Source of the DNA: Chitinophagales bacterium
GTDB lineage: Bacteria; Bacteroidota; Bacteroidia; Chitinophagales; Chitinophagaceae
DNA length: 38,295 nt
Direction of reading: 5' to 3'
Assembly: GCA_021323755.1 (NCBI GenBank)
Contig: JAJPKJ010000057.1
Coordinates: 1 to 38,295 of the forward strand
The number at the start of each line of letters is the position of its first letter. The first letter of the stretch is position 1. The notes under the pieces are model-generated. The model was given only the letters and a program-made list of their open reading frames with translations, ran no database searches and had not been told where the DNA came from. This document shows, in pieces, positions 23,238-38,017 of the stretch. The translations under genes were made by a program, and so were the position numbers.

Positions 23238-23453
23238 TCAATGTCTACCAATTTTATCTTTCAAGATTTTACAAAGCATCCATTGTTCCCAAATGAGCGA
23301 TGCAGCATCTGAAGGCGCCAGAAGCGGTGGCAAACATTGCTTGCTATAGATCTGGTCTTCTTCCTCATTTGCTGAACCTTTTTCTTTAGCCAATGGCGTT
23401 GACATTTGCTTAATAGCAGCAAATTCATTTTTGGCAATTATATTTGGTAACAT
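23238..23453 (-). CDS. Small orphan protein (71-77 aa)
   Basis: Unrecognised ORF of 71 aa from the ATG at 23453, or 77 aa from a TTG at 23471. It is hydrophilic and begins MLPNIIAKNEFAAIKQMSTP. A charged stretch (KEKGSANEEEDQ) is followed by LPPLLAPSDAASLIWEQWML. No domain, signal peptide or membrane segment is visible. Support is moderate: it fills a gap in which no other gene fits, and a one-mismatch FNR-like palindrome (aTGATaattGTCAt, 23521-23534) lies about 75 nt upstream of the ATG. That is the spacing seen for other genes in the region. It could still be a chance ORF. Confidence 0.35.
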   Translation of the reverse strand: MLPNIIAKNEFAAIKQMSTPLAKEKGSANEEEDQIYSKQCLPPLLAPSDAASLIWEQWMLCKILKDKIGRH

Positions 23454-23520
23454 CTTTTGGAATTTAGTCAAACGTATTTCCTACCTCCATTTATTTTTAT
23501 GATGAATATTATTACATCTT

Positions 23521-23534
23521 ATGATAATTGTCAT
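23521..23534. promoter_or_regulatory. Degenerate FNR-like site upstream of small orphan gene
   Basis: aTGATaattGTCAt: the TGAT-N4-ATCA core with one mismatch, in intergenic DNA. Its centre is about 75 nt before the ATG at 23453 (minus strand). It is weaker than the other sites. Confidence 0.25.
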
Positions 23535-23917: not shown

Positions 23918-23931
23918 TTGATCATAATCAG
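23918..23931. promoter_or_regulatory. FNR/CRP-like site TTGATcataATCAG (hsp20 / Pro-rich gene)
   Basis: Perfect TGAT-N4-ATCA core with nine of ten bases of TTGAT-N4-ATCAA. The centre (23924.5) is 75.5 nt before the Hsp20 ATG and 76.5 nt from the divergent Pro-rich gene start, almost exactly midway. One dimer could serve both promoters. Confidence 0.55.
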
Positions 23932-23999
23932 TACATCAGTTGAAGATGATCATTGTGAAGAGATAATTAAGATCTTATTCTTACAGAGCAATTACTAAA

Positions 24000-24419
24000 A
24001 TGGAATTGATTTTAGTGATCATAATAAACGTGTATATGCAAGTCAAGCCGGGGTCGTCAGAAAAAATTATATTTAAAAGCAACAATCGCAATGAAGAAAT
24101 ATTCTTTGAAAATTTAAAGGAAGAATATATTTTATCAATGCTTATAACAGGCTTAAAGAAAACTAATATTGAAATAACTACTGCAAAAAAAATGTTACGC
24201 ATCTTTTCAAATGCAGATACACGACATTTAGATAAGATTGTTTGCGAAAATGGACGTACTTCCTACGACATGCATCAGCTGAATCTTTCTTTTGCTTTAC
24301 CATCCGATGCAGATCTCAAAATGGCGAAAGCAAAATGTAATGGCGAGATGTTGATTGTTCACTTCCCAAAAACAGATCACCCATATTGTCCTCCTTACTC
24401 GAAGATACCTGTCACTTAG
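24000..24419 (+). CDS. Divergent Hsp20/alpha-crystallin family small heat shock protein
   Basis: This 139-aa protein shows a complete though divergent alpha-crystallin domain. NLKEEYILSMLITGLKKTNIEITTAKKMLRIF (from about residue 39) matches the strands Y-x-L-x-x-x-L-P-G-x-x-K-x-D-I-x-I-x-x-x-x-x-L-x-I. LNLSFALPSDADLKMAKAKCNGEMLIVHFPK (from about 93) matches the F-x-L-P-x-x-(A)-x-N-G-x-L-x-I-x-x-P-K end. Such proteins are ATP-independent holdases. The canonical PG and NGVL are changed to TG and NGEM, so it may be specialised. The ATG at 24036 is an alternative start. It has an FNR-like palindrome 76 nt upstream and is divergent from the Pro-rich gene. Confidence 0.65.
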   Translation: MELILVIIINVYMQVKPGSSEKIIFKSNNRNEEIFFENLKEEYILSMLITGLKKTNIEITTAKKMLRIFSNADTRHLDKIVCENGRTSYDMHQLNLSFALPSDADLKMAKAKCNGEMLIVHFPKTDHPYCPPYSKIPVT

Positions 24420-24974
24420 TTTTTCAAATTCCGCAACCGGCGATCACTGCCAAAAAAAGCGAGCATGCCTAAATAAAAATCAAAAATATTTACCAGCCTA
24501 CAATAGACAGTTATTTTAAACCTGGATTATATATTGAAAACATATGGCTTATGTTAGCATGACCTGAAGTTGGGTTTCACGCCCCAACTGACTTTAGTAG
24601 CAAAGCAGGGGAAAAGAAATTAAGAAACCACTATCTGTTCAAGGATTATCTTAAAGTTGTTGTTTCATTCCAACGGACTGTGTTGTAAAATATTACGATT
24701 CTATAACCCCGGATTTTCAATAAAAATCTTAAGGAATAGATCTAATTTGTTTGAAAACAGCTCAATTACTAATATTGGAATCGACGGGATCAGCTGGGCC
24801 ATTTAGCATCGATCCGCTTGGAACATCATTCCCGGATTAATTTGGCAACGCTGAACCATAACATAATCTATTTGTTAAATTCATGAAATGATATCGGTCG
24901 CCCATATAGCCCGATCATCCAGTAAGTTAAAATGCAGCACTCTGTTAGGTATTTTAGTAAAATTATTCAACTAT
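24420..24974. other. Long intergenic region without a recognised gene
   Basis: In these 555 bp I find no convincing ORF and no perfect FNR-like core. A 7-bp hairpin (AGTTGGG..CCCAACT, 24568-24589) lacks a U-tract. Several 7/8 matches to TAnnTTTG occur (for example TTAATTTG near 24838), as expected in AT-rich DNA. The end may carry the promoter of the EEP-family gene. Confidence 0.4.
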
Positions 24975-25820
24975 ATGCTCTGTCGTCTAACGAAAATCTT
25001 TTCTAAAATTGTATTTTTTGCATTTTTGTTTTCATGCCGCGCCCTGTCTTTTTACGGCGATGCGGACAAACCCTTTTTTTATTCCGGCAATAAAGTGATA
25101 CCTAGCCAGGAAACATCTGACTCGCTTACCGTGGTAACATTTAACATCAAGAAAGCCAGAAAAATTGAAATGGCGATATCCGAGCTCAAAGAGTTAAAGA
25201 AAAAATCGCCGGTTGATATTTATCTGCTTCAGGAAATGGATGAAAAAGGCGTTCAGACCATTGCAGCAAATCTGAATTTAAATTACTTATACATTCCCAT
25301 TGCCTATGATAAGTCGGATGAAAAAAATATTGGTAATGCTATTTTAACAAGTGGGACAATAGTACATCCAGAAAAATTGATACTCCCTCATGCCAAATGG
25401 CAGAATCAACAGCGTCGTGCGGTTAGCATTGGGGAAGTAGATATCCACCAAAGGAAAATAATGGTGTTCAGTGTTCATACGGAAACTGTAGCGATGAGCA
25501 GGAAGATGAGAATGGACCAGGTTGATTCCATTGTTCATTTTGCTAAGCAGGAGTCGGCGCATTACGATTATGTTTTAATAGGCGGGGATTTTAATACGGT
25601 ATTTCCAAATTATGCCCAGTCCGTGGTAACAAGATTCAAAGACAACGGATTTGACTGGTCAACATCGAGTGTGGGGAGCACCGCTAAAGCAATGTTGGGA
25701 ATCGTAAAACCAACAAATGATTACTTGTTTTCCAGGGGATTCAAGGCCGTGGGCGCCTATGTAGTTCGCAGCTCAAAGTCAAGCGACCATTACCCTGTAT
25801 TTGCCACGTTAAGATTTTGA
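24975..25820 (+). CDS. Endonuclease/exonuclease/phosphatase family lipoprotein
   Basis: EEP-fold (DNase I-like) metal-dependent hydrolase, 281 aa from the ATG at 24975. The first 21 residues, MLCRLTKIFSKIVFFAFLFSC, form a signal peptide ending in a plausible lipobox (LFSC, Cys21), so it is probably a lipoprotein. Family motifs: TVVTFNIKKA (Asn metal ligand), DIYLLQEMDEKG (catalytic Glu), AVSIGEVDI, VFSVHTE, LIGGDFNT (D-x-N), and a final SSDHYPVFATL (Asp-His). Substrates of the family include DNA, RNA and phospholipids or phosphoinositides; a secreted form makes extracellular nucleic acid or lipid plausible. A longer ORF from 24888 is possible but would bury the signal peptide. Confidence 0.82.
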   Translation: MLCRLTKIFSKIVFFAFLFSCRALSFYGDADKPFFYSGNKVIPSQETSDSLTVVTFNIKKARKIEMAISELKELKKKSPVDIYLLQEMDEKGVQTIAANLNLNYLYIPIAYDKSDEKNIGNAILTSGTIVHPEKLILPHAKWQNQQRRAVSIGEVDIHQRKIMVFSVHTETVAMSRKMRMDQVDSIVHFAKQESAHYDYVLIGGDFNTVFPNYAQSVVTRFKDNGFDWSTSSVGSTAKAMLGIVKPTNDYLFSRGFKAVGAYVVRSSKSSDHYPVFATLRF

Positions 25821-26261
25821 GATGATCAAGATCCCCCAAAGAAGTTTGATTCCGTCGACAAATTGATCGATTTGTGGTTCTGATGGAATTTTAGGAAGGA
25901 TTCCTTTGAACACCCAATATATATTTATTCTCCAATTATTTTTTCAGGAATTTCTCCGAAAATCAATCAGGTCTGCTGAATGAGAGTTCTTTTCTGAAAA
26001 GTAATTATTTTCAAACGAGTGGTTGAATTGCTAAATAAAAGCGGTGGCTGTGCAAAATACCGCATCAATAGCAATCGCCAGAATTAAAAACCGAGTTCGT
26101 CTTTACCGGACAAAATTAATGTAACCCATATCAAAGATCATAATTGGCTTTGGTATATCCCAATTTGAATCTTACGAATTTTTATACTACTGATTTTATG
26201 GCATTTACTGATTTCAAAAATGTAATTAAGAAAATTTTTTTGAGCAGGATCATTTCTCAAG

Positions 26262-26275
26262 CTGATGTGAATCAT
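26262..26275. promoter_or_regulatory. FNR/CRP-like site CTGATgtgaATCAT upstream of usp
   Basis: Perfect TGAT-N4-ATCA core centred at 26268.5, 89.5 nt before the usp ATG. The TTTG of the -7 box starts 33.5 nt downstream of the centre. If the transcript starts about five bases after that box, the dimer sits near -41.5, the class II activator position. Confidence 0.55.
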
Positions 26276-26297
26276 CAGGGACAATCATCAACAGGAA

Positions 26298-26305
26298 TAA
26301 CTTTG
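26298..26305 (+). promoter_or_regulatory. -7 promoter box TAACTTTG of usp-cls operon
   Basis: Exact match to TAnnTTTG. No TTG lies at the normal -33 distance; instead the FNR-like palindrome occupies that region, as expected for an activator-dependent promoter. The predicted leader is about 45-50 nt. Confidence 0.5.
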
Positions 26306-26357
26306 AAAGAGTTAAAATCTGACTGTAACCTCAATAGATAATTTTAAAAAGAAGTTT

Positions 26358-27176
26358 ATGAAGACTATAGTTGTCCCTACGGATTTTTCCAGCACTTCAC
26401 GAAATGCCGTTGATTATGCGGCTGATTTGGCTTCTTCCATGAATGCTGATCTAACGATACTAAACGTTTGTCCGGTTCCTATAAGCTTCGAGATGCCTTT
26501 TCCGGGTTTTACTCTGGAGCAGATGCTCGATGAAGCAAAAACAGAACTGGAGAGAATGAAAATGAAAATTCTTGAAAGAACCGCAGGAAGAATAAAAATC
26601 AATTTAGTCGCAAAAATGGGAACAGTTATTTCACAAATTGACAATTATTGCGCTTCAGTAGATCCCTACGCCGTTGTAATGGGCAGTGAAAGTATCAATG
26701 GATTAGAAAGAATACTATCAGGCAATAATACGATTGCAGCGTTAAGTCGCGTTTCCTGGCCCTTAATCATTGTGCCACCAGAAGGAAAATTTATTGGAAT
26801 AAAGAAAATTGGTTTGGCATGCGATTTTAGAAATGTGATTAACACTCTCCCGATAGAAAAGATAAAGGAGCTCATGAATAGGTTTCACCCTGAATTATTT
26901 GTGCTGCATGTAAGCCTGGAAGGTTCATCAAATTCACAAATAGGACAAGAATCCGTATGGCTTCAGGAAATGCTCTATGGACTCGAACCAAAATATGAAT
27001 TTGTTCAAAGCACAAGTATTGAAGAAGGAATCAGTAGTTTTGCAATAAATAATAACCTTGATATGCTGATCATTATTCCAAAGCACCACAACCTCATCAG
27101 TAAAATATTTCAGCATAGTCATAGTAAACAAATGGCAATTCATACCCATTTGCCCCTTCTTGCCATTCATGAATAA
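26358..27176 (+). CDS. Universal stress protein, tandem-domain
   Basis: This 272-aa cytoplasmic protein has two UspA domains. Domain 1 (about 1-140) begins MKTIVVPTDFSSTSRNAVDYA, the classic start with the Asp that contacts ATP, and ends VVMGSESINGLERILSGNN...WPLIIVPP, resembling the G-2x-G-9x-G-(S/T) phosphate loop. Domain 2 (about 145-272) is more degenerate: IKKIGLACDFRNVINTLP and LDMLIIIPKHHNLISKIF lack the glycine loop, so probably only one domain binds nucleotide. Tandem Usp proteins often belong to low-oxygen or dormancy regulons. An FNR-like palindrome and a matching -7 box lie upstream. The PLD-family gene follows after 30 nt, so the two are likely one operon. Confidence 0.93.
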   Translation: MKTIVVPTDFSSTSRNAVDYAADLASSMNADLTILNVCPVPISFEMPFPGFTLEQMLDEAKTELERMKMKILERTAGRIKINLVAKMGTVISQIDNYCASVDPYAVVMGSESINGLERILSGNNTIAALSRVSWPLIIVPPEGKFIGIKKIGLACDFRNVINTLPIEKIKELMNRFHPELFVLHVSLEGSSNSQIGQESVWLQEMLYGLEPKYEFVQSTSIEEGISSFAINNNLDMLIIIPKHHNLISKIFQHSHSKQMAIHTHLPLLAIHE

Positions 27177-27206
27177 CCAAAACTAATTTTGGCAATTCCA
27201 AATATT

Positions 27207-28370
27207 ATGATCCATGGAAATTATACCGGTAATAACAAAGTAAAATTGATTCGTGGAGGGAAAGATTATTTTGATTTATTAATTCAGCTCATCAATCAGG
27301 CTACTGACAGTATTCATCTTCAAACGTATATTTTTGAAAGCGACGCGACAGGCAGGCTAATCGGAAATGCGCTAATCCAGGCAGCCACGAAAAAAATAAA
27401 TGTCTTTCTGTTGGTTGATGCTTACGCATCGCAATCTTTATCAAAGACATTCATAAAGGAATTAACAGATGCAGGTGTCCACTTTCGCTTTTTTGAAACT
27501 TTCTTTAAGACCAAGCATTTTTATTTGGGAAGACGATTGCATCATAAAGTGGTTGTAATTGACACCCGTTATACATTAGTTGGAGGTTTAAATATTTCTG
27601 ACAATTATAACGAGTGGAATGAACATTCCGCATGGCTTGACTTTGCTTTATATGCTGAAGGAGAAATAGCACAACAATTATGCGTTCTGTGCTGGAAAGC
27701 CTGGAGAGATTTCCCGTCGAAAATGGGCGTTACCCCTTGTGAGCAAAAGTCGCTTTCTTATAATTTTTCTCCGGAGGAAAAAGCTTTGGTGCGTATGCGC
27801 CGTAATGATTGGGTGCGAAGAAAAACTGAAATTTCAAAAAGTTATGTTGAAATGTTTGATAACGCAGAATCGCACATCATCATCTTATCCAGCTATTTGA
27901 TACCGGGCAAATTATTCAGGCATCATTTGAAAAAAGCAGTCCAACGAGGCGTTCTTATAACCGTTATTACTGCCGGACGTTCTGATATTGCTCTTGCAAA
28001 AAACGCAGAACGTTTTTGGTATGCCTGGCTCTTGCGGAATAATATTGAAGTGTATGAATATGGAAAAAATATTTTGCATGGGAAGATGGCTGTCTGCGAC
28101 GGAGAATGGCTTACAATCGGATCCTTCAATGTTAATAATATAAGCACCTATGCAAGCATCGAATTGAATCTGGATGTGCGTGATAAAAAATTAGGCGGAG
28201 ATACAGAAAAAATATTGCGTGATATTATAAATTCTGATTGTGTAAAAATTACGACGACAACGCTTCGCAGGTCCACGAACATTTTTAGTCAGTTTCTTCA
28301 TTGGTTATCTTACGAAATCATCAACACTGTTTTTTATTTGTTTACTTTTTATTTCAGACATCAGGATTGA
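27207..28370 (+). CDS. Phospholipase D family, cardiolipin synthase-like protein
   Basis: Two-HKD phospholipase D-superfamily protein, 387 aa from the ATG at 27207 (a TTG at 27189 would add six). Motif 1 is HHKVVVIDTRYTLVGGLN and motif 2 is HGKMAVCDGEWLTIGSFN, both with intact His-x-Lys-x4-Asp. DSIHLQTYIFESDATG near the N-terminus is typical of cardiolipin synthases. It lacks the two N-terminal membrane segments of ClsA, like ClsB-type enzymes, but has a hydrophobic C-terminal tail (INTVFYLFTFYF). Cardiolipin or another phosphatidyl transfer at the inner membrane is the likely reaction. It is co-transcribed with the universal stress protein, suggesting membrane remodelling under stress. Confidence 0.86.
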   Translation: MIHGNYTGNNKVKLIRGGKDYFDLLIQLINQATDSIHLQTYIFESDATGRLIGNALIQAATKKINVFLLVDAYASQSLSKTFIKELTDAGVHFRFFETFFKTKHFYLGRRLHHKVVVIDTRYTLVGGLNISDNYNEWNEHSAWLDFALYAEGEIAQQLCVLCWKAWRDFPSKMGVTPCEQKSLSYNFSPEEKALVRMRRNDWVRRKTEISKSYVEMFDNAESHIIILSSYLIPGKLFRHHLKKAVQRGVLITVITAGRSDIALAKNAERFWYAWLLRNNIEVYEYGKNILHGKMAVCDGEWLTIGSFNVNNISTYASIELNLDVRDKKLGGDTEKILRDIINSDCVKITTTTLRRSTNIFSQFLHWLSYEIINTVFYLFTFYFRHQD

Positions 28371-28595
28371 TATATTTTTTCTAAAATAAATTCATCTTTT
28401 CCCTGGTTCTTTTTAAAAGCGAATGGACAGCTTCCCGATTCCGGCCTGGAAAACGCCCACCCTCCCCGATAAGACATTTTCGCCAGATATAGTCCGATAT
28501 TGATGAAAAACGAATTTGGCTTGTCAAGCCGCCTGAGCAAGTAAATTTTCGTCTTGTTCTTGCCATAAAGTTACAACCGTAAAAGTTTTCAATTT

Positions 28596-28874
28596 TCAAT
28601 TCCCTTCATTAGTATCTGCAGCATCATAAGAATCGATCTTTAAATTAATTTTTTCCAAATGTTTTTCCAATCTATGTTTATGCTCTTCAAGTTTTTGTCT
28701 TATCGTAATCAGTTTTTCTTTGCTGCATTCCCCGTTCATTGATGTGGAAAGTTTCCTTAATCTTTTATCCAATTTTTTGCGGGTTTCTGACCCTTTAGCA
28801 GGAGCAAACATTACGCCGAGTGCAACGCCTGTTGATATGCTGGCAAGAGCGAGCAATTTTGATGAATTTTTCAT
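28596..28874 (-). CDS. YtxH domain-containing protein
   Basis: This 92-aa protein has one N-terminal hydrophobic segment (LLALASISTGVALGVMFAPAKGSETR), the YtxH hallmark with the small-residue helix followed by AP-x-KG-x-x-x-R-x-x-L. A charged coiled-coil tail contains KLEEHKHRLEKHLEKINLKI. YtxH-type proteins are general-stress membrane proteins of unknown mechanism (named from Bacillus). It lies 31 bp downstream of the nitroreductase on the same strand, so it is probably the second gene of that operon and shares its control region. The ATG at 28874 is well placed. Confidence 0.8.
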   Translation of the reverse strand: MKNSSKLLALASISTGVALGVMFAPAKGSETRKKLDKRLRKLSTSMNGECSKEKLITIRQKLEEHKHRLEKHLEKINLKIDSYDAADTNEGN

Positions 28875-28905
28875 TGTTCATTTTTTTTAATGATTGTAAT
28901 ATTTA

Positions 28906-29532
28906 TTAATCGATAAAAATGATATTATCATTCTTTCTCGTATGCAATTCGGGCTTCTCATCTCCATATCCAAGAATAATTGAAATTTGAACTTCTTCAG
29001 AAGGTGGAACATTTAATCTCGAAAATATTTTTGTATGCTGTACAAATTTGCCAAATCCAACCGGGCAGCTGTCTAAACCAAATGCTTTTGCTGCGAGCAT
29101 CATATTCTGAGAGCACATCCCGATATCGAGTGGAGCCCATTCGTTATCTCGCGGAGCTGTAATGAAAATGACTACGGGCGCCCCATGAAAGATCGGATCC
29201 GATAATGCTCCAAAATTAAAATCGTGCATAAAGTGTAAAAGATGATTTGTTGTTTGTGTTATCTTCTTTATACCGGATTGCGCGAAATCTTTTAATGCAA
29301 CATGAGCAATTTCTTTTGAAAAAGATTTAATTGTTGCCTTATCCATCAGCACATAAAACTTCCATGGTTGTTTATTTATAGCCGACGGCGCCATTCTTCC
29401 TGCATCTATTATTTCCTCAACAATATTTCTTGCTACAGGCTGGTCCGTATAGCTGCGAACAGCTCTTCTTCTATAAATAACATCGATAATCGCCTGAGCT
29501 GAAGATGGGCGATTTATTGTTTCTGACTTCAT
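28906..29532 (-). CDS. Nitroreductase family protein
   Basis: FMN-dependent oxidoreductase of the nitroreductase superfamily, 208 aa. RRAVRSYTDQPVARNIVEEIIDAGRMAPSAINKQPWKFYV (from about residue 22) is the FMN-binding signature with R-x-S/R-Y and APSAxNxQPW. PVVIFITAP, DIGMCSQNMMLAAKAFGLDSCPVG and VQISIILGYGDEKPE complete the fold. Enzymes of this family reduce nitroaromatics, quinones or flavins with NAD(P)H; the physiological substrate is unknown. Its upstream region (29533-29803), shared with the divergent pps gene, contains three FNR-like palindromes. The nearest is 152 nt from its start codon. Confidence 0.9.
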   Translation of the reverse strand: MKSETINRPSSAQAIIDVIYRRRAVRSYTDQPVARNIVEEIIDAGRMAPSAINKQPWKFYVLMDKATIKSFSKEIAHVALKDFAQSGIKKITQTTNHLLHFMHDFNFGALSDPIFHGAPVVIFITAPRDNEWAPLDIGMCSQNMMLAAKAFGLDSCPVGFGKFVQHTKIFSRLNVPPSEEVQISIILGYGDEKPELHTRKNDNIIFID

Positions 29533-29677
29533 AAATTTTCTTTTGAATTATAGTTAAAAATCTGATTTCAGGATTGAAGTGAGCACACTCCATCTTATCT
29601 AAACAAATCAGTGATCTTCCTTTTGTGAACTTATCGATCCGATGCATAGAAAAGAATGATGCAGGTCATGGCAGCAA

Positions 29678-29691
29678 TTGATCTTTATCAA
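29678..29691. promoter_or_regulatory. Perfect FNR box TTGATctttATCAA (nitroreductase/pps region)
   Basis: Ten of ten bases match the FNR consensus TTGAT-N4-ATCAA. The centre is 29684.5, which is 119.5 nt from the pps start and 152.5 nt from the nitroreductase start. It is the best single match in the window. Confidence 0.65.
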
Positions 29692-29723
29692 AAACGCTCT
29701 TTTTATTTCCTGCATTTTCCATC

Positions 29724-29737
29724 ATGATACCAATCAT
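29724..29737. promoter_or_regulatory. FNR/CRP-like site ATGATaccaATCAT upstream of pps
   Basis: Perfect core with fully symmetrical outer bases. The centre (29730.5) is 73.5 nt before the pps start codon, close to the spacing seen for hsp20 and usp. Confidence 0.55.
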
Positions 29738-29745
29738 AAATGCTT

Positions 29746-29759
29746 TTGATGACCGTCAT
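29746..29759. promoter_or_regulatory. FNR/CRP-like site TTGATgaccGTCAT upstream of pps
   Basis: One core mismatch (GTCA for ATCA). The TTTG of AAAATTTG (29782-29789, 7/8 match to TAnnTTTG) starts exactly 33.5 nt from its centre, the same geometry as at usp. It may be the promoter-proximal activator site. Confidence 0.4.
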
Positions 29760-29803
29760 ATAATTAAGAAGCAATAAAAAGAAAATTTGAGAAAAGATAT
29801 ATT

Positions 29804-32188
29804 ATGTCAGTATATATAAAAAAATTTAGTGAAATCGGTATAACCGATGTACCTGCTGTTGGCGGAAAAAATGCCTCGTTGGGAGAAATGTTTACTCAGC
29901 TGTCTTCAAAAGGAATTAAAGTACCGGACGGGTTTGCCACAACTGCAACTTCGTTTTGGGATTTTATAGATTATAATGAAGCGCGATATGCGTTGCGGGA
30001 TATTATAAAGCAGTTAGACAACAAAAACTTTTCCAACCTCAAAGAAATCGGTAAGCAGGCAAGAGTATTAATATTGAATGCAAAAATGCCAAAAAAATTA
30101 TCCGATGAAATAATTGGTGCATATAAAGAATTATCTGGAAAAGATTATTTAGAAGTAGCGGTCAGAAGCAGCGCTACAGCTGAGGATCTTCCTGAAGCGA
30201 GTTTTGCCGGCCAGCATGAATCCTTTCTCAATATCAAAGGAGAAAAAGCTTTGCTGGAGGCCGTCCAAAAATGCTTTGCTTCATTATTTACCGACAGGGC
30301 AATTAAATACCGCGAAGACAATGGTTTTGCTCATGAAAGAGTTGCATTATCGGTAGGTGTTCAGAAGATGATTCGCTCGGATAAGGCCTGTTCCGGTGTA
30401 GGTTTTACCCTTGAGCCGGAATCAGGTTTCAGAAATATTATTCACCTGGCGGGTGTTTGGGGCTTGGGAGAAAACATTGTGCAGGGAACAGTTACACCAG
30501 ATGAATTTCTGGTTTTCAAACCATCTCTGCTTCAGGGAAAAAAATCAGTCGTTCAAAAAAAATTAGGGGATAAATCATTAACCATGATCTATGGCGACAA
30601 TGGGAAAGACACCGTCATCAATATTGAAACTCCGAAAGAAAAAAAAGAGCAATTTGTTTTGAATGAAAATGAGATTGCAAAATTAGCAGCCTGGGCTTTG
30701 CAAATTGAACAACATTATAAAAAGCCGATGGATATTGAATGGGCCAAAGATGGAATTACAAATGAATTGTTTATTATTCAGGCAAGACCTGAAACAGTAC
30801 ACTCACGCAAAAATCCTTTGCAAATAAAAGAATACAAACTATTAGCAAAAGGAAAAGTCTTGGTAAGCGGAGAAGCGATAGGGACCAAAATAGCATCTGG
30901 ATTTGCCAGAATACTTGATTCTCCTAGAGATGCCGATAAATTAAAGCAGGGAGAAATAGTTGTAACAGATCTTACAAGCCCCGACTGGGATCCAATATTA
31001 AAGAAAGCGGCTGCTATTATTACCAATAAAGGCGGCAGAACTAGTCATGCTTCGATCATCGCAAGAGAGATAGGTGTTCCGGCAATAGTTGGCAGTAGCA
31101 ATGCAACCAGCGTTATAACAGATGGACAATTGATAACGGTTTCATGTTGCGAAGGTGAAAAAGGTTTTGTGTACGAAGGCAAATTGCCCTACAAGGAAAC
31201 ACAACTCGATTTTTCACAAATGGCAATGCCGGAAAGTACAGAAGTGATGATGATCATTGGTGATCCGGAAAAAGCTTTCAAACTTTCATTCTATCCAAAC
31301 GATGGCGTCGGATTGATGCGGCTTGAATTCATCATTAATGATTCTGTAAGAATTCATCCGATGGCTTTGGTGAAATTTAATGAACTGAAAGACCAGGAAG
31401 CAAAACAAAAAATCGAGGAACTAACGCATCATTATGCTGATAAAGAACAATATTTCATAGAAAAGTTGGCCGAAGGTGTCGCCACTATTGCTGCTGCCTT
31501 TTATCCGAAAGATGTGATCGTCCGCATGAGCGACTTTAAAACAAATGAATATGCAAGCCTGTTGGGCGGCAAAGAATTTGAACCGGTCGAAGAAAATCCA
31601 ATGCTTGGATTCCGGGGAGCATCACGCTACTATAATGATTTGTATAAAGATGGTTTTCGATTGGAGTGCAAAGCTATGAAAGTAGTGCGTGAAGAAATGG
31701 GATTGACCAATGTAAAATTGATGATCCCTTTTTGCAGAACTGTTGAAGAAGGAAAAAAAGTTATTCATATTATGCACCAGTTCGGACTTACCCAGGGTGA
31801 ATTCGATCTTGATATATTCGTGATGGCCGAGATTCCCAGTAACGTACTTCAGGCAAGTGAATTCGCGGAAATATTCGACGGGTTTTCTATTGGTTCAAAT
31901 GATCTTACTCAGTTAACATTAGGCATTGACCGAGATTCAGCGCTTGTAGCCGATTTATTCAGTGAACAAAATAAATCTGCCAAAGAAATAATTGCGATGA
32001 TGATTAAAAGAGCAAAACACGCAGGAAGAAAAACCGGTTTGTGCGGCCAGGCACCCAGTGATTTTCCGGAATTTGCCAGTTTCCTAGTTGAGCAGGGCAT
32101 CGACAGTATTTCCTTCAACCCGGATGCATTGCTAAAAGGAATCGACAACATAATCAAAGCAGAAAAAAAATTGGCTGTAACGACATAA
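29804..32188 (+). CDS. ppsA: Phosphoenolpyruvate synthase
   Basis: Pyruvate, water dikinase: makes PEP from pyruvate and ATP with release of AMP and phosphate, feeding gluconeogenesis. It is 794 aa, the full family length. The N-terminal ATP-grasp domain (about 1-345) shows VGGKNASLGEMF, VAVRSSATAEDLPEASFAGQ and VWGLGENIVQG. The central phosphohistidine domain has TNKGGRTSHASIIAREIGVPA with catalytic His415. The C-terminal PEP/pyruvate TIM barrel shows GVGLMRLEF, NPMLGFRG, EIPSNV, SIGSNDLTQL and the proton-donating Cys747 in GLCGQAPSD. It is divergent from the nitroreductase-ytxH operon, with three FNR-like palindromes between. In a fermentative or starved state it could rebalance PEP and pyruvate. 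Confidence 0.95.
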   Translation: MSVYIKKFSEIGITDVPAVGGKNASLGEMFTQLSSKGIKVPDGFATTATSFWDFIDYNEARYALRDIIKQLDNKNFSNLKEIGKQARVLILNAKMPKKLSDEIIGAYKELSGKDYLEVAVRSSATAEDLPEASFAGQHESFLNIKGEKALLEAVQKCFASLFTDRAIKYREDNGFAHERVALSVGVQKMIRSDKACSGVGFTLEPESGFRNIIHLAGVWGLGENIVQGTVTPDEFLVFKPSLLQGKKSVVQKKLGDKSLTMIYGDNGKDTVINIETPKEKKEQFVLNENEIAKLAAWALQIEQHYKKPMDIEWAKDGITNELFIIQARPETVHSRKNPLQIKEYKLLAKGKVLVSGEAIGTKIASGFARILDSPRDADKLKQGEIVVTDLTSPDWDPILKKAAAIITNKGGRTSHASIIAREIGVPAIVGSSNATSVITDGQLITVSCCEGEKGFVYEGKLPYKETQLDFSQMAMPESTEVMMIIGDPEKAFKLSFYPNDGVGLMRLEFIINDSVRIHPMALVKFNELKDQEAKQKIEELTHHYADKEQYFIEKLAEGVATIAAAFYPKDVIVRMSDFKTNEYASLLGGKEFEPVEENPMLGFRGASRYYNDLYKDGFRLECKAMKVVREEMGLTNVKLMIPFCRTVEEGKKVIHIMHQFGLTQGEFDLDIFVMAEIPSNVLQASEFAEIFDGFSIGSNDLTQLTLGIDRDSALVADLFSEQNKSAKEIIAMMIKRAKHAGRKTGLCGQAPSDFPEFASFLVEQGIDSISFNPDALLKGIDNIIKAEKKLAVTT

Positions 32189-32327
32189 AAAAATGAGTCC
32201 GATCATAACTTAAGTTTGAGGACATAAGCGAGATACTCTTGCCATTTTTTATTTTGAAGATAAATACTTGCCTGTAACCCTTATAAAACTGACCGCAACA
32301 TTATAAAGAGTCTTGGGTAATGCAACA

Positions 32328-33101
32328 CTAATTCAAATTCAAACTATACCTGCATGAGACTCTCAAATAAGGGTATGATTTATTGACATCAGGATAATTT
32401 CTGTAATTAGCATGTAAGTTAAAATAACCTGGTTCTACACATATTGAAATTCCATCTACCAACATGTACCTCAGTTCACTGGTTATTGTGTGTAAGAAAT
32501 AATCGGTAGAATTACCATTGATTGTTTTCAGCCATCCACCCCGGTAATTTATTGTATAGAAAAGGTGATTTGCAACGTTCAATGAAAAATTAGCGTGAAA
32601 ACCAAGCCCTGTGCAGAAATCATAATTTCTTCCTTCGTACAGAATGCTATCGGGCACAGCCGCTAAAATAACCGGACCTGCGCCAACAATGGTATTGATA
32701 ATAAAACCATGAGCCATTTTAAAAGATGAGAACAGATTAAGCTTTATACTTTGAGCACTGTAAAAGAAAGCCTCATTATTTATATAATCGTAATTCATGG
32801 AAATCATAAGCAGATGTTGCACATCTTCTTTTTCATTGATCCGCCATCCTCTTATTGATCCATATACACTGATGATATTAAGCTTGGAGCTATCATCTTT
32901 CCCCAGTTCTGCATTAACTGAAATATTGCTGAATGGTATTTCGTATTTTTCAAATGGCGTTCCATATATAAACCGAGCGTGTGCGTAAAAACCAAAATTC
33001 CCATCGCTACTGTTAACTTTAAATTTTCTAACGCCTACGTCAAACTCGGTATACACGTTGGATGAATCATGCTCCATAGTATTGCCCATAACCTTCCCCA
33101 C
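32328..33101 (-). CDS. DUF3943 protein, C-terminal half (as open frame)
   Basis: 257-aa open frame beginning at a GTG inside the first half, with no signal peptide of its own, so it is unlikely to be an independent gene. The content is alternating beta-strands typical of a small outer-membrane barrel: YTEFDVGVRKFKV, FGFYAHARFIYGT, ISVYGSIRGWRI, HLLMISMNYDYI, LFYTINYRGGWL, SELRYMLVDGISICVEPGYF and a final YLRVSCRYSLNLN. It fits onto the end of the first half when one G is restored. It stops 139 bp after the convergent pps stop. Confidence 0.55.
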   Translation of the reverse strand: MGKVMGNTMEHDSSNVYTEFDVGVRKFKVNSSDGNFGFYAHARFIYGTPFEKYEIPFSNISVNAELGKDDSSKLNIISVYGSIRGWRINEKEDVQHLLMISMNYDYINNEAFFYSAQSIKLNLFSSFKMAHGFIINTIVGAGPVILAAVPDSILYEGRNYDFCTGLGFHANFSLNVANHLFYTINYRGGWLKTINGNSTDYFLHTITSELRYMLVDGISICVEPGYFNLHANYRNYPDVNKSYPYLRVSCRYSLNLN

Positions 33102-33742
33102 CTCCCATCTATAATTCTTGTCAACCCATTTACCGGATTAATAAGAAGTGCAATCACTTCACTTAATTGTCTTTTCAAGCCCCGACTTCGATTGTTGACC
33201 ATTTTATTTGCCAGTCTGTACGTCATTTCGCCAAGAGTAATTCCTCCAAAACCAGTATTGATAAAATCATTAGGAGCAGGCGGCTGGTTTTCTGCAAAAG
33301 TTTCCCATAAATAACTTCCGGCAAATGAAGCCGGCACGGCTTGCCAAAAGCTATAACCATTAGATCTTAATGAATTATAGAATAAACTTCCGTGATAAGG
33401 ATGGCCAAACTGGTTGGTGGTAAAAGCATCATTGTCCCAGGTCCAACTGGCAGGACTTAAATTATATTTTACGGTCTGCCATGTTATGTGTGTGTAATCT
33501 ACTTTCCGGATATAATTGTCGACAAGCCATGGCGTAGTCTCCGAGATTAATAATTCTCCGGCGCCAAGCCAAAATTTCTTTTTGACGTGACCAGAATCCA
33601 ACAGAAATCTTGCAGAATCCTTTGCAACAATTTTCTTATCAAAAACAATGCCTTGCGCATATGCTGTCCTATTAAGAAGAACCGATGCAATAAATAATAC
33701 CAATAGAATGAATTTTCTAGCCCGAATTTGATTCATGAGCAA
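33035..33742 (-). CDS. DUF3943 protein, N-terminal half (as open frame)
   Basis: 235-aa open frame with a signal peptide (about 1-29, ending RTAYAQ), hence exported. The DUF3943 core is well conserved: WTWDNDAFTTNQFGHPYHGS, FYNSLRSNGYSFWQA, GSYLWETFAENQPPAPND, FINTGFGGITLGEMTYRLAN, ending INPVNGLTRIIDGRWG. The last 20 or so residues (RLWAILWSMIHPTCIPSLT) are read in the wrong frame after the G run and are not family-like. The ATG at 33742 is preceded by a 226-bp region that also serves the divergent NTF2-like gene. If translated alone it would lack the barrel-like C-terminus. Confidence 0.6.
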   Translation of the reverse strand: MLMNQIRARKFILLVLFIASVLLNRTAYAQGIVFDKKIVAKDSARFLLDSGHVKKKFWLGAGELLISETTPWLVDNYIRKVDYTHITWQTVKYNLSPASWTWDNDAFTTNQFGHPYHGSLFYNSLRSNGYSFWQAVPASFAGSYLWETFAENQPPAPNDFINTGFGGITLGEMTYRLANKMVNNRSRGLKRQLSEVIALLINPVNGLTRIIDGRWGRLWAILWSMIHPTCIPSLT

Positions 33743-33899
33743 GAATTATTTGAGTTGCCTGAATACAGTAACAATTTCATTTCAATACTATTTGATTGTG
33801 AGAAGCATTTTGATAACGACCGTCATATCTTATACTGAGCATTATCAATACATCGGTCTGGAAATTTGTTTTGTAGGTTGATAGGATGATCATTTTTAA

Positions 33900-33913
33900 A
33901 TGATGAAAATCAA
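33900..33913. promoter_or_regulatory. FNR/CRP-like site ATGATgaaaATCAA upstream of NTF2-like gene
   Basis: Perfect core, nine of ten consensus bases, centred at 33906.5, 62.5 nt before the start at 33969. A TTTG (33940-33943) starts 33.5 nt downstream of the centre, as at usp and pps, although the TA of the -7 box is missing. The divergent DUF3943 gene starts 164 nt away. Confidence 0.5.
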
Positions 33914-33968
33914 TTATAATAATGAATCCCATCAGCTTTTTTGAAAGCTAAGCAAGTATTTTTATTGT

Positions 33969-34472
33969 ATGATAAAATCGATCATTTTATTTTTATTTCT
34001 TGTATCCACAATCCCGGTTGTATCTCAATCGACAATTAACGTAACGGAATCAAAAAAGGAATTGAACGAAGATTCTTTGGTTTGGCGTATTGCTCTCAGT
34101 TTTAGTACCATTTTCCATGATGCGGATACTGCTGCCATGGACAGATTACTTCCAAATGATTTTATGTTGCAATGGATGCATGAAAATTTTATTGGGAAAA
34201 AAGAGTTACTAAATGCAATGGCTAACCAATCTACCCATGAAGCGATGGAGCATAGAGTGGAATATAACGAGAAAGCAATCCTGCGCTATTCGAATGATCA
34301 TACTGCTGCAAGCATCAATACTGCTTTTACTTTCATTGATGAAAAGCAAACCAAATTCATTGAGAAATCACACGGATTCGGTTTATGCATAATCTACCTA
34401 CAGAAAGAAAATGATCAATGGATCATTAGAACTATTCATCTTGATCTGCATTGCACATTATGCAATCTTTGA
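33969..34472 (+). CDS. Secreted NTF2-like (DUF4440/SnoaL-type) protein
   Basis: 167 aa with a signal peptide (MIKSIILFLFLVSTIPVVSQ). The mature part resembles the cone-shaped NTF2-like fold: ALSFSTIFHDADTAAMDRLLPNDFMLQWMHENFIGKKELLNAM is the usual first helix, the D-x-x-x-L-x-x-x-x-D pattern and a G-K-x-E/D-L-L turn. AILRYSNDHTAASINTAFTFID and WIIRTIHLDLHC are later strands. Such domains bind small ligands or act as accessory enzymes, and no specific role is assignable. It ends with two cysteines (HCTLC). It is a single gene with an FNR-like site 62 nt upstream, divergent from the frameshifted DUF3943 gene. Confidence 0.72.
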   Translation: MIKSIILFLFLVSTIPVVSQSTINVTESKKELNEDSLVWRIALSFSTIFHDADTAAMDRLLPNDFMLQWMHENFIGKKELLNAMANQSTHEAMEHRVEYNEKAILRYSNDHTAASINTAFTFIDEKQTKFIEKSHGFGLCIIYLQKENDQWIIRTIHLDLHCTLCNL

Positions 34473-34594
34473 ATTTTTTCATATAAGCATTACATTTCGC
34501 ACGCTCTGCTAAGCTGAGTTCACCAGCTCCAATTATTTGAGTCCATCCGCTCCCCCACTTTCTTCAAGCTTATCACTGATGTCGATGGAATAAA

Positions 34595-34608
34595 ATGATA
34601 ACAATCAG
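34595..34608. promoter_or_regulatory. FNR/CRP-like site ATGATaacaATCAG upstream of envelope operon
   Basis: Perfect core centred at 34601.5, 87.5 nt before the YqjE-like gene start. Spacing to the ATG nearly equals that at usp. The nearest -7-like sequence (TACCTTGC, 34653-34660) is imperfect and farther away than at usp. Confidence 0.5.
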
Positions 34609-34688: not shown

Positions 34689-35051
34689 ATGGAAAATACA
34701 TTTCTTAAGCTAGAAGAACTGGCTGGCCACTTAAAGGAATATGTAAATAACAATATCGATACTGCAAAACTCAAGACAGCAGAAAAAAGCTCCGCTCTTT
34801 TTGCAGGAATAATGGCGAGGATTATAGTAATGCTGGTTTTTGTATTTGCCTTTTTGTTTGCAAGTGTCGCACTTGCTTGTGTGCTTGCGAAAATAACCGG
34901 TGCTCTTTATTGGGGGTTCCTAATTGTGGCAGGTATCTATTTATTTCTTGCATTTATGGTGTGGAGCCTGCAGGAAAAAATTTTAAGGTTGCCTCTCATG
35001 AATTTTATGTTAGAGCAACTATTTAAAACCAATGACCATGAAAAAAATTAA
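34689..35051 (+). CDS. YqjE/phage holin III-like membrane protein
   Basis: 120-aa inner-membrane protein of the putative actinobacterial holin-X/YqjE type. An amphipathic N-terminal helix (LEELAGHLKEYVNNNIDTAKLKTAEK) precedes two adjacent membrane segments, about residues 42-68 (ARIIVMLVFVFAFLFASVAL) and 72-97 (ALYWGFLIVAGIYLFLAF), then a short cytoplasmic tail. Family members are not lytic holins; they sit with YtxH/ElaB-type stress proteins. It is the first gene of an operon: it overlaps the next gene by 20 nt (translational coupling), and the L,D-transpeptidase follows. It is under a putative FNR-like site. Confidence 0.82.
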   Translation: MENTFLKLEELAGHLKEYVNNNIDTAKLKTAEKSSALFAGIMARIIVMLVFVFAFLFASVALACVLAKITGALYWGFLIVAGIYLFLAFMVWSLQEKILRLPLMNFMLEQLFKTNDHEKN

Positions 35052-35354: not shown

Positions 35355-36950
35355 ATGTTAGAAAAATGTTGCAAAATCAATGTGATCCTTAATGCCTTAA
35401 TTGCTACTTTATTCTGTTCATTCTTTTCTGCCGGACAAGCCATCGCACAATCACCGTCACAAAAAATTCACGGGTACTTTACGGGCGTTTCTGCCATAGA
35501 GCAAAAATTATTTTATGCAACCGAAACCAAAAGATTTTATGTCCGAAATGGGTTTGCATATGCGTGGCTCTCAAAACAAAATATCGCCGATTTTCAAATA
35601 CTCTTAGTTTATTTTAAACAAAGCGCAAACTTAGGTTTAGAGCAAGATGATCACGTCAATTCATATTGTAGCCAATTGAAATATAAAATACTTACTGCTT
35701 CGAGTGAAGATGATTCCATAAACGCAGATATTGCTATAACAGATGCAGCAATTCATTTTTTCCATGATGTTGCTGAAGGAAATCAGACTGAGGATTTATT
35801 ATATAATGGATTGAATTATTTTCCGGGCTGCATTAATATTGATTCCATTCTCTTTGTTTATTTAAATACGGGCAAGTTTTCTTTTTTATTATCCGATTTG
35901 GAGCCACACGAAAAAATATATGAATCAATGAAAGAAAAATTGCAATTCTTTCAGCAAATTATTTCAATTGAAAATTTTAAAGATGCACAGGTGAAATCGG
36001 AAAGCACGGACGCCAACCGGCGACTACTGATCACGCGTTTATACCAGTTAGGTTTACTCGCGTCGGATACAGAGAAATTGGATCTCACTCAAATAAAAGA
36101 CAAAATAAAGGAAGTTCAAAACACTTTGAACCAGGCAGAAGATGGTGAACTTCATTATTCAACCATTCAAATGCTTAATGTTCCGATATCAACTAGGATT
36201 ATAGAATTGAAAAGTGCTTTAAACGCACTTCGATGGATTGGTTGCATAAAAAAGACTGAAAGGCATATTATTGTAGTGAATATACCATCAACTACATTAC
36301 AATTATACGAACAGGACAAAATAGTCTTAGAATCAAAAATTGTTGCAGGCAAAAAAAGTACTCCGACACCAACCTTATGCAGTGTAATAAATGAAGTGAT
36401 TCTATATCCTTACTGGAACGTACCAAATAAAATTGCCGTATCGGAATTGTTGCCTGCCATTAAAAAAAATCCAGAATTTCTTGCAGACAATAATTACGAG
36501 GTTTTAGATAAACAGGCTAAAATAATAGATCCGGCAAAAGTAAACTGGCAGAAGCTGAATAAGAATAATTTCCCGTATACGATCCGGCAATCGACCGGTT
36601 GCGATAATTCTTTGGGGTTGATTAAATTAAATTTCTACAATCCTTATACTGTCTATCTGCATGATACTCCTTTCAAAGGCTTTTTTAAAGCCAAGTATCG
36701 TTTTTACTCTCACGGATGCATGCGTGTGGAAAGAGCATTTGAGGTTGCCCGATATGTCTTGAAAAACCATAGCGTTGCAATTGACACGTTGGTTCAAAAA
36801 GGCTGTCTCAAAAATCAAAGCCCTGTCGTCATCCGGGCCTCTGAAATAATCCCTGTATTTGTTTTATATCATACTGCATGGGCAGATTCAGCAGCCACTG
36901 TAAGATTTTATCCTGATGTTTACAAAAAGGTCTCTCTCGCAGAAAATTAG
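35355..36950 (+). CDS. L,D-transpeptidase, YcbB/LdtD type
   Basis: Periplasmic peptidoglycan enzyme, 531 aa, which in this family makes 3-3 (DAP-DAP) cross-links or attaches proteins to the wall. It has a signal peptide (about 1-32, ending AIAQ). An N-terminal scaffold region (about 40-290) contains RRLLITRLYQLGLL in the place of the peptidoglycan-binding domain. The YkuD catalytic domain (about 300-480) has HIIVVNIPSTTLQLYEQDK, VVAGKKSTPTP-like IVAGKKSTPTPTL, YWNVPNKIA, and VYLHDTPFKGFF with YSHGCMRVE carrying nucleophile Cys455. It lies 56 bp after the 88-aa gene and is the last gene of that operon. Its stop overlaps the convergent regulator stop by 4 nt. Confidence 0.92.
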   Translation: MLEKCCKINVILNALIATLFCSFFSAGQAIAQSPSQKIHGYFTGVSAIEQKLFYATETKRFYVRNGFAYAWLSKQNIADFQILLVYFKQSANLGLEQDDHVNSYCSQLKYKILTASSEDDSINADIAITDAAIHFFHDVAEGNQTEDLLYNGLNYFPGCINIDSILFVYLNTGKFSFLLSDLEPHEKIYESMKEKLQFFQQIISIENFKDAQVKSESTDANRRLLITRLYQLGLLASDTEKLDLTQIKDKIKEVQNTLNQAEDGELHYSTIQMLNVPISTRIIELKSALNALRWIGCIKKTERHIIVVNIPSTTLQLYEQDKIVLESKIVAGKKSTPTPTLCSVINEVILYPYWNVPNKIAVSELLPAIKKNPEFLADNNYEVLDKQAKIIDPAKVNWQKLNKNNFPYTIRQSTGCDNSLGLIKLNFYNPYTVYLHDTPFKGFFKAKYRFYSHGCMRVERAFEVARYVLKNHSVAIDTLVQKGCLKNQSPVVIRASEIIPVFVLYHTAWADSAATVRFYPDVYKKVSLAEN

Positions 36951-38017
36951 ATATCAACTTTCGACAATCTTTTTAATTGCCTTTCTTCTAAAATAATTAT
37001 TTTTCCGTTTTTAATATTGATCATTTTTTCTTTTTGCAAATCATTTAAAATATTAAAAACATTTTCTGAGGAATAATTCAGTTTATGATAATTTTTTCTC
37101 TTCATTAAGTCAACCCCGCTATTTTCGTCGTCTGAAACTTCTGTTTCAATTTGTTCTTCAAGCAGACTTTCAATAAGCATCCTTTTCAATGAAAAATAGA
37201 CAAGAGAAGTTATCTTTTCTTCTTTATTATGGTTATTTCCCGAGAGAAGTTTAATGAATTGCCTGGATATCTCCTGCGCCGAGTGAATCAACTGTAAAAA
37301 TATTTCCTGTGGGATCACCAATAATTCTGTTTCTTCTTCCGCAACGGCATTGTCTTTATGTTTTGTGTTTTCAAGAATTGCATTATATCCTAAAAACTCA
37401 TCTGTTTCGTGTCTATTGGTGATAAATTCATTCCCTGAATTATTAATAAGATAAGATTTTATTTTCCCTTTGATAATAAAATATGCTGCTTGCGGTATAT
37501 CCATTTCCGAAAACAATATTTCTCCCCGCTGTAATTTTTTTTTAGCGATGTTTTCCAGTGTTAAAGAGGCACTGAAATTTGAATTGACATATCCAATCAA
37601 CTCAATGATCTGTTCGTAAATATTTTTTTTCGAGAATGTAGAAGTAATATTCCTTTTTGCCAATGCTTTATCTACCGCAGCCAAGACTTCGTTCCCGCTA
37701 AATGGCTTGATAATATATCCTGTTGCACCAAGTCCGAATCCTTTTTGAATATCATCTTTTTCCGACCTGGAACTAAGGTAAATAAAAGGAATGTTCATGG
37801 TTTCCTTGTTTTTTGCCAGTAGATATAAAACACCGTAGCCATCCAGTTCGGGCATCATGATGTCGCAAAAAATAAGATCGGGTTTTTCAGCGAAAGCTTT
37901 TTCGGCTCCGAGCCGGCCGTTGGAAGCCGTAAATACTGTGTAACCTTCCAACTCGAGAATTTCTGCAAAATTTTCTCTTATCTCCAGATTATCTTCGATT
38001 ATTAGGATTTTTTCCAT
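36947..38017 (-). CDS. Response regulator fused to CRP-like cNMP-binding domain
   Basis: 356 aa. The receiver domain (1-120) is complete: acidic Glu8-Asp9, phospho-acceptor Asp52 in CDIMMPELDG, Ser82 and Lys104 in IIKPF. A cyclic-nucleotide-binding-like domain (about 150-260) has the beta-roll pattern RGEILFSEMDIPQAAYFIIKGKIKSYLINNSGNEF. The C-terminal CRP-type winged helix is divergent: YSSENVFNILNDLQKEKMINIKNGKIIIL keeps the Glu of the recognition helix but lacks the Ser-Arg of the E-x-x-S-R motif, and has extra residues before it. No sensor kinase is adjacent. This hybrid could regulate the stress island, but its altered helix makes it doubtful as the reader of FNR boxes. Confidence 0.88.
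   Translation of the reverse strand: MEKILIIEDNLEIRENFAEILELEGYTVFTASNGRLGAEKAFAEKPDLIFCDIMMPELDGYGVLYLLAKNKETMNIPFIYLSSRSEKDDIQKGFGLGATGYIIKPFSGNEVLAAVDKALAKRNITSTFSKKNIYEQIIELIGYVNSNFSASLTLENIAKKKLQRGEILFSEMDIPQAAYFIIKGKIKSYLINNSGNEFITNRHETDEFLGYNAILENTKHKDNAVAEEETELLVIPQEIFLQLIHSAQEISRQFIKLLSGNNHNKEEKITSLVYFSLKRMLIESLLEEQIETEVSDDENSGVDLMKRKNYHKLNYSSENVFNILNDLQKEKMINIKNGKIIILEERQLKRLSKVDI

Follow-up and report, generated by a model that had tools for sequence, protein, structure and literature searches.

Palindromes in a Chitinophagales stress-gene island are very probably operators of a low-oxygen FixL-FixJ-FixK-like regulon in which FixJ and FixK are fused

The cbb3 oxidase and the oxygen-independent coproporphyrinogen oxidase HemN are usual targets of low-oxygen regulation in other phyla. 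The FNR and Anr proteins of the Proteobacteria have a CRP/FNR fold, recognize a TGAT-N4-ATCA core and activate hemN and cbb3 genes from a position near -41.5, while the mycobacterial DosR regulon, with its haem-sensor kinases, has universal stress protein (Usp), Hsp20 and nitroreductase genes among its targets, DosR itself being a NarL/LuxR-type regulator with another operator. Another described system is the FixLJ-FixK2 cascade of Bradyrhizobium diazoefficiens: in excerpts of PMC9104804 the FixK2 box is given as TTGA/C-N6-T/GCAA, with several boxes reading TTGAT-N4-RTCAA, and the genes that carry it include hspC2 (Hsp20), the Usp gene bll4644, the nitroreductase gene blr4652, ppsA (blr4655), the holin-family blr6067 operon, the PNPOx-family gene blr4240 and hemN2. 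Here we analyse a stretch of 38,295 nucleotides (nt) from a Chitinophagales bacterium (assembly GCA_021323755.1, contig JAJPKJ010000057.1), called the window below, in which palindromes precede genes for Hsp20, Usp, phosphoenolpyruvate (PEP) synthase (pps), a nitroreductase and envelope proteins. Our analysis makes it very probable that these palindromes are the operators of a low-oxygen FixL-FixJ-FixK-like regulon whose FixJ and FixK counterparts are fused in one protein.

An earlier note on this DNA had counted eight copies of TGAT-N4-ATCA in the window and expected about one by chance. An exact scan returned ten; the seven positions reported outside coding sequence are exact, and two coding copies had been missed. 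The chance expectation is nearer two, from the rate in the whole genome (252 copies in 4.08 Mb, or 2.4 per 38 kb) and from dinucleotide shuffles (mean 1.97, maximum 5; 0 of 100 reached ten), and the enrichment over both is four- to five-fold. The outer TT/AA flanks did not hold up: TTGAT-N4-ATCAA occurs once in the window, about as often as chance allows, the flanks are not favoured in the operator profile, where an A precedes TGA in about half of the sites, and this full motif was dropped as too strict. The FixK-type core TGAY-N4-RTCA is the better consensus, with 16 copies in the window against a shuffle mean of 3.5 (0 of 100 reached 16). It adds four sites outside open reading frames (ORFs), at 29657, 29747, 23522 and 38277. 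The first two each lie exactly 22 bp from a site already listed in the earlier note (29679 and 29725), and the region between the nitroreductase gene and pps holds four operators as two 22-bp pairs (29657/29679 and 29725/29747). Distances from operator centre to start codon, earlier put at 62-90 nt, were measured as 75, 89, 119, 73, 62 and 87 nt, close to that range with the exception of 119.

Site densities were compared after masking mechanically called ORFs of at least 90 aa. The non-coding DNA of the window holds ten TGAY-N4-RTCA sites in 3,706 b between 23000 and 38295 and none in 2,263 b between 1 and 23000, with site 15510 scored as coding because the mechanical clpC ORF begins at an upstream TTG. 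The resulting P value of 2e-12 is not a clean test, because the window was picked owing to its sites. The clean tests are a sister contig of the same genome, C9, with seven non-coding sites in 4,052 b, and the relatives, with 72 in 44,741 b (20 stretches, 19 around the fusion regulator described below and one around the best Usp orthologue); the own-genome background of 20 stretches of 20 kb has three in 36,048 b. Coding copies of the operator occur at background density. Across 76 named loci (80 minus four duplicates), the scope of all locus counts below unless another is given, 220 non-coding sites amount to 16.9 per 10 kb as against 1.07 in coding DNA, and an everted control motif of the same letters gives 1.23 and 1.02, respectively. 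A reversed-pattern control, absent from 98 relatives and matched once in one of 395 genomes of the phylum, is not composition-matched, and the everted control was added. The sites also recur at a fixed spacing, with 37 pairs at 22 bp and four at 23 bp, all other offsets to 120 having at most two. Six tandem pairs are found in the genome itself: two in the window, three on C9 and one on contig C20.

The strongest evidence for the operators is promoter geometry. We oriented 253 promoter-proximal segments, from 85 of 99 loci, on the operator centre. TAnnTTTG, which excerpts of PMC7366714 give as the -7 consensus for the primary sigma factor of Bacteroidota, starts (with at least five of six letters) at +29 in 77 segments and at +51 in 67, compared with a median of 2 and a maximum of 9 elsewhere; removal of near-duplicates leaves 76 and 67 of 251. 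TTTG alone stands exactly at +33 in 52 and at +55 in 53, most other downstream offsets having about two. A -7 box falls within one base of +29 or +51 in 153 of the 253, against 17-19 segments when the positions are shifted. Where the box is at +51, at least half of a second operator is present at +22 in 62 of 67 segments (4 of 67 at a control offset), and where it is at +29, at least half of an operator is present at -22 in 62 of 77 (control, 3 of 77). Because the -7 box is fixed at these two distances, the operators would be centred near -40 or -62, roughly where CRP and FNR bind as class II and class I activators, and a 22-bp tandem would occupy both. The enrichment of the box at +29 and +51 is that of CRP/FNR class I and class II activated promoters, and within the window usp and pps fit the geometry.

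Conservation in relatives follows the same lines. Of 38 regions preceding Usp homologues, taken from this genome and its relatives, 27 contain TGAY-N4-RTCA, with 36 sites in all, and 300 shuffles gave means of 1.05 sites and 1.02 regions and a maximum of 4. These regions extend to 320 nt, a few of their starts being domain starts only (L002, L011), with two second domains (L008, L010) and a duplicate (L019) left out; many of the sites form pairs with centres 22 bp apart. Among all 26 pps rows, sites lie within 320 nt upstream in 9 of the 17 homologues that are at least 60% identical and in 1 of 9 paralogues at 52-55%. The region upstream of clpC, which had been counted in the regulon, served as negative control (29 of 30 rows, one partial row omitted; 2 without a start, 4 regions shorter than 320 nt). 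A site is present in 1 of 27 regions, that of this genome, and absent from the other 26; the clpC/STAS site at 15510, 82 nt 5' of the clpC ATG, looks like chance and was rejected as a regulon member. A chance cluster of AT-rich palindromes would account for this unconserved site and for the background density of coding copies, and individual sites could have arisen so. For the set as a whole, however, the shuffles, the everted control, the background stretches, conservation, the 22-bp spacing and the -7 offset exclude it; the spacing results refute a chance origin of the whole set, and we give this explanation practically no weight.

Contig C9 carries the genes that connect these operators with oxygen. 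It begins within a histidine kinase gene, followed by that of P0001 (1174-2232), a fusion of a receiver, a cNMP-binding and a Crp-type helix-turn-helix (HTH) domain. Next comes hemN, whose called start has an operator 15 nt ahead of it, and then ccoI and a ccoNO-P-G-H-SafE cluster; the two sites of a tandem pair lie 255 and 277 nt ahead of ccoNO. Genes for Hsp20, a Usp with three sites, a Nim/PNPOx-like protein and SulP are followed by those for an alcohol dehydrogenase (ADH), with an operator 76 nt before it, for a CoA-transferase and for a further two Usp proteins, these with a tandem pair. Family matches support hemN, ccoNO, the heavy-metal ATPase (ccoI), Hsp20, Nim, the CoA-transferase, PNPOx and ADH, and two of the C9 Usp genes match PF00582; NCBIfam returned nothing for ccoH. 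Because the cbb3 oxidase and HemN are usual low-oxygen targets, this gene content supports low oxygen as the signal, and it strengthens the low-oxygen half of what the earlier note had called a low-oxygen or quiescence regulon, now as an island of activator operators. An overlap between the end of contig C10 and the start of C9 was looked for and not found, so that their adjacency is unproven. C9 also contains a 2,914-aa ORF (L056:3799-12543), labelled GH94-like by eye only.

The linked regulator differs from the plain FNR or CRP protein that had been thought likely, being a receiver-CRP/FNR fusion encoded next to a FixL/DosP-like kinase. P0001 matches PF00027 and PF13545 above cut-off, which places it in the CRP/FNR family, and its receiver residues are those of two-component response regulators: D9, D52 and K104 are kept in 37 of 37 distinct receiver-CRP rows, with T (33) or S (4) at T82. 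The recognition-helix Glu is present in all 37 rows and the Arg in 36. NCBIfam gave no above-cut-off match to regulator or kinase among the matches listed, and the structure model of P0001, of mediocre confidence (pLDDT 72.8), was not used as evidence. The kinase-fusion pair is conserved in relatives. Full-length receiver-CRP proteins are listed for 62 of 98 genomes, this one included, and a kinase directly adjoins 63 of 73 fusion genes. The 250 nt preceding the gene contain an operator for 29 of 68 kinase genes and for 7 of 74 fusion genes, which suggests that the kinase-fusion operon is autoregulated. In five genomes (G045, G016, G009, G014 and G032) tandem operators stand about 50-115 nt 5' of the fusion gene.

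The kinase on C9 is truncated by the contig start, its HisKA and HATPase_c domains being found in the remainder. The PAS domain of its orthologue in genome G026 has as best PDB matches the haem PAS domains of FixL (E 5.9e-15) and DosP (E 3.5e-13), in alignment with the His and the Arg that serve in these proteins as haem ligand and distal residue. The haem-His column is H in 18 of 18 kinase rows and the Arg is kept in 16 of 18. By its sequence the kinase PAS domain is a candidate for haem binding.

Of 395 genomes of the phylum, 51 carry tandem operators. As counted from the table of genomes, these are 13 of 14 of the own family, 5 of 5 of the rest of the order, 26 of 79 of the rest of the class and 7 of the 297 that belong to other classes. 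Among genomes at least 90% complete, 42 of 54 with the fusion protein have them against 8 of 23 without it, a comparison uncorrected for phylogeny. The best 80 of 581 confirmed stretches include some from the named genera Chitinophaga, Flavihumibacter, Sediminibacterium, Dyadobacter, Larkinella, Emticicia and Pontibacter, with the kinase-fusion pair in both Chitinophaga filiformis and Dyadobacter flavalbus. Bacteroidota-like receiver-CRP genes were also seen under the titles of an Azovibrio restrictus metagenome-assembled genome (MAG; L241) and an Alphaproteobacteria MAG (L290), probably in mis-binned contigs.

Our data are consistent with a model in which a single activator of the CRP/FNR fold would bind TGAY-N4-RTCA, often as two dimers 22 bp, or two helical turns, apart. 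Placed at about -40 and/or -62, it would act together with the Bacteroidota RNA polymerase at a TAnnTTTG -7 box. The activator is most likely the C9 fusion protein, and the adjacent PAS histidine kinase would phosphorylate its receiver and so render it active. Because of the likeness of the kinase to FixL and DosP, which sense oxygen through haem, we infer that low oxygen would be the switch, turning on the genes for the cbb3 oxidase, HemN, Usp, Hsp20, PEP synthase, nitroreductase, Nim/PNPOx and ADH together with the envelope genes. What the sequences themselves establish is the operator with its spacing, promoter geometry and conservation, the domain composition of the proteins and the linkage of their genes; binding by this regulator, its activation by phosphorylation and oxygen as the signal are deduced from these.

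Several observations weigh against this model. In 100 of the 253 segments there is no -7 box at the expected offsets or one base away from them; in the window itself hsp20 has none, the boxes of the NTF2-like and YqjE genes are weak and the nitroreductase gene has a TTTG only. Eight of the 17 close pps homologues have no site, and the distant paralogue that has one carries it 302 nt upstream. On C9, ccoP, ccoG, ccoH and SulP, and likewise SafE and the last Usp, were named by eye; PAS motifs like those of the kinase are also present in other kinases that are not known to be haem proteins; and a paralogue of this genome, C64:113899, has no readable recognition helix. Furthermore, 8 of the 23 genomes that are at least 90% complete and have no fusion protein keep tandem operators nonetheless.

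This last observation bears on the possibility that a plain CRP/FNR protein, either FNR-like or the paralogue encoded on contig C8, reads the operators, and that the fusion regulator is merely near. Plain FNR-like proteins that share the helix (TATE-x-x-I-R in G076, G052 and G038) or have a similar one (TVKETAIR in G086) adjoin cbb3 or usp genes or tandem sites, in two genomes for which no full-length fusion is listed (G076 and G086) and two in which it is also present (G038 and G052). An N-terminal CxxC is found in 4 of 6 such proteins examined, and the C8 paralogue (L017, helix KPETFSRL) keeps the E..SR residues. In this genome, however, the FNR N-terminal cysteine cluster is in none of the seven cNMP-binding proteins found, VATESLIRTL (TATESLIR) occurs only in P0001 among the readable recognition helices, and the sole site within the 3.3 kb surroundings of the C8 gene falls inside another ORF. 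With operators upstream of fusion and kinase genes as well, we regard a plain protein as an unlikely reader. The plain proteins with a like helix beside the same operators suggest that the fusion arose when an FNR-like protein already reading the operator gained a receiver. Four of the plain proteins (L301, L302, L304 and L307, from G076, G086, G038 and G061) combine the CxxC with a Cys that precedes an IP/VP motif and, judged by eye, resembles FNR Cys122, and are possibly Fe-S sensors; those of G076, G086 and G038 adjoin the operators described here.

A second candidate reader is the fusion paralogue encoded in the window itself (36947-38017), which stands at the end of the island, has an operator 265 nt upstream, keeps receiver residues D9, D52 and K104 and has a predicted winged helix (mean pLDDT 82.8). 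Its recognition helix, SSENVFNIL, carries Asn where the other 36 of 37 rows carry Arg, and a full-length match above 43% identity was absent from the 57 other genomes searched although the operators are conserved. The first Foldseek PDB match of its model is Aliivibrio fischeri FNR, with a TMq of 0.28 and the domains arranged otherwise. On its helix sequence it was rejected as main reader, and that it regulates the island is highly improbable; it may have another DNA target, be a heterodimer partner or be drifting. The C9 fusion remains the favoured activator.

Compared with FixLJ-FixK2, the system described here shares a FixL-like PAS kinase and a palindromic box, and by family name each FixK2-box gene in the excerpts of PMC9104804 (above) has a counterpart in the islands of the window and C9. 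The Bradyrhizobium system has separate FixJ and FixK proteins, whereas here the receiver and CRP/FNR parts lie in one ORF by the kinase, and the Bacteroidota -7 promoter, the 22-bp tandem operators and the phylum are further differences. Because FixJ and FixK are not separate at these loci (the rest of the genome was not searched for a FixJ), the system does not belong to the FixL-FixJ-FixK2 cascade. DosR, the parallel drawn earlier, is more distant: the linked regulator has a Crp-type HTH in place of a NarL/LuxR DNA-binding domain, and the FixK2 list, in those excerpts, has genes for Hsp20, Usp and nitroreductase, ppsA, a holin-family gene and hemN in common with the present set. FNR and Anr have the core, the fold, hemN and cbb3 genes as targets and a similar activator position in common with the system proposed for the C9 protein, which has a receiver domain instead of the Fe-S cysteine cluster; because these cysteines are missing (its single Cys lies within the receiver), it is not FNR sensu stricto. 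The plain Bacteroidota FNR-like proteins resemble it in helix and in nearby operators, with cbb3 genes adjoining in G076 and G038, and differ in having no receiver domain. Excerpts of PMC8510549 place CRP/FNR proteins from one Saprospiraceae MAG and one Flavobacteriales MAG near MalR, and those of PMC9723704 report a cbb3 oxidase strongly induced under oxygen limitation in Flavobacterium psychrophilum. A Bacteroidota regulator of the present kind is not described in the excerpts of these two papers or of PMC4999443 and PMC9083452, and no receiver-CRP/FNR regulon in Bacteroidota appears among the titles and opening abstract lines listed from the open-licence literature.

Table 1. Operators, -7 boxes and genes of the island in the window
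Feature	Position	Strand	Remarks
Small ORF, 77 aa from TTG, inner ATG likely	23238-23471	-	No Pfam match
-7 box TACGTTTG	23469-23476	-	Serves small minus-strand ORF
Operator, TGACAATTATCA on minus strand	23522-23533	-	TGAY-N4-RTCA; gap 45 to -7 box of small ORF
Operator	23919-23930	+	75 nt 5' of hsp20; usual offset without -7 box
Hsp20-family protein	24000-24419	+	PF00011, 28.5 bits
Operator	26263-26274	+	89 nt 5' of usp
-7 box TAACTTTG of usp	26298-26305	+	+29 from operator centre
Universal stress protein	26358-27176	+	PF00582
PLD-family, cardiolipin-synthase-like protein	27189-28370	+	Starts 12 nt past usp
YtxH-like protein	28596-28874	-	
Nitroreductase	28906-29532	-	PF00881
TTTG without full -7 box, nitroreductase	29604-29607	-	+55 from operator 29657
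Operator	29657-29668	.	22-bp tandem partner of 29679
Operator	29679-29690	.	Tandem with 29657
Operator	29725-29736	+	+51 to pps -7 box
Operator	29747-29758	+	+29 to pps -7 box; 22-bp tandem partner of 29725
-7 box AAAATTTG of pps	29782-29789	+	+29 and +51 from its two operators
Phosphoenolpyruvate synthase (pps)	29804-32188	+	
Operator	33901-33912	+	62 nt 5' of NTF2-like gene
Weak -7 box CTTTTTTG	33936-33943	+	+29 from operator centre; TTTG at +33
Small protein, 'NTF2-like' in the earlier note	33969-34472	+	No Pfam match at 0.001
Operator	34596-34607	+	87 nt 5' of YqjE/holin-like gene; weak box TCAATTTC at +28
Phage_holin_3_6/YqjE-like membrane protein	34689-35051	+	
L,D-transpeptidase	35355-36950	+	YkuD plus scaffold domain
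Receiver-cNMP-binding-Crp-HTH fusion regulator, divergent paralogue	36947-38017	-	HTH_Crp_2 score below Pfam cut-off
Operator TGACGCCTATCA	38277-38288	.	265 nt 5' of window regulator; contig end 7 nt away

The features of the island are collected in Table 1; usp and the PLD-family gene that follows it are likely to form one operon. The sole tRNA in the window is a tRNA-Asp (anticodon gtc) at 21144-21218.

A search of the whole genome for an operator followed, after a gap of 20-48, by TAnnTTTG returned 14 matches (4 for the reversed pattern), 9 of them at the exact gaps of 23 or 45, where about one would be expected if gaps were uniform. Beyond the two islands, the downstream genes include those for an ATP-dependent PEP carboxykinase (L308:589-2279, gap 45), a 2-oxoacid:ferredoxin oxidoreductase (L309:289-2203, gap 22) and a cupin-like protein; because operator and box precede the first two, carbon metabolism near PEP may be a target. 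Two gap-45 matches lie inside ORFs (C40 and C66:108707) with no downstream gene, and an intergenic match on C62 has no called gene. The genes downstream of the 153 boxed segments, classed by best match to window and C9 proteins, comprise 15 kinases, 18 Usp, 10 Hsp20, 8 ccoI, 6 ccoNO, 6 fusion regulators, 4 Nim and 3 hemN, and 79 match no reference protein. Ten of those 79 were scanned, and gave a ScdA-like hemerythrin (L236:300-1055), a glutamyl-tRNA reductase (L272:13374-14636), a c-type cytochrome, a COX2-like protein, DoxX, Usp and an ATP-cone protein, with three belonging to no family; the first two lie 3' of operator and -7 box in relatives. Two small families of 11 and 6 members recur in the same position (L300:7846-8241 and L253:11052-11450), the scanned member of each having no Pfam match.

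Overall, it is probable that in Chitinophagales and Cytophagales a FixL-like kinase paired with a receiver-CRP/FNR fusion that acts directly at tandem -40/-62 operators on Bacteroidota promoters replaces FixL-FixJ-FixK or an Fe-S FNR as a system of two proteins, with phosphorylation gating the CRP/FNR fold and the rewired window paralogue as a possible modulator. Little has been described of how Bacteroidota of soil and fresh water that have no evident Fe-S FNR sense low oxygen, and our work would supply a testable rule of operator, regulator, sensor and promoter for many genomes, as well as a candidate for a phosphorylation-gated CRP/FNR protein. It would also give a reason why genes for Usp, Hsp20, PEP synthase and nitroreductase travel together, and would show a FixK2-like target set far from the rhizobia.

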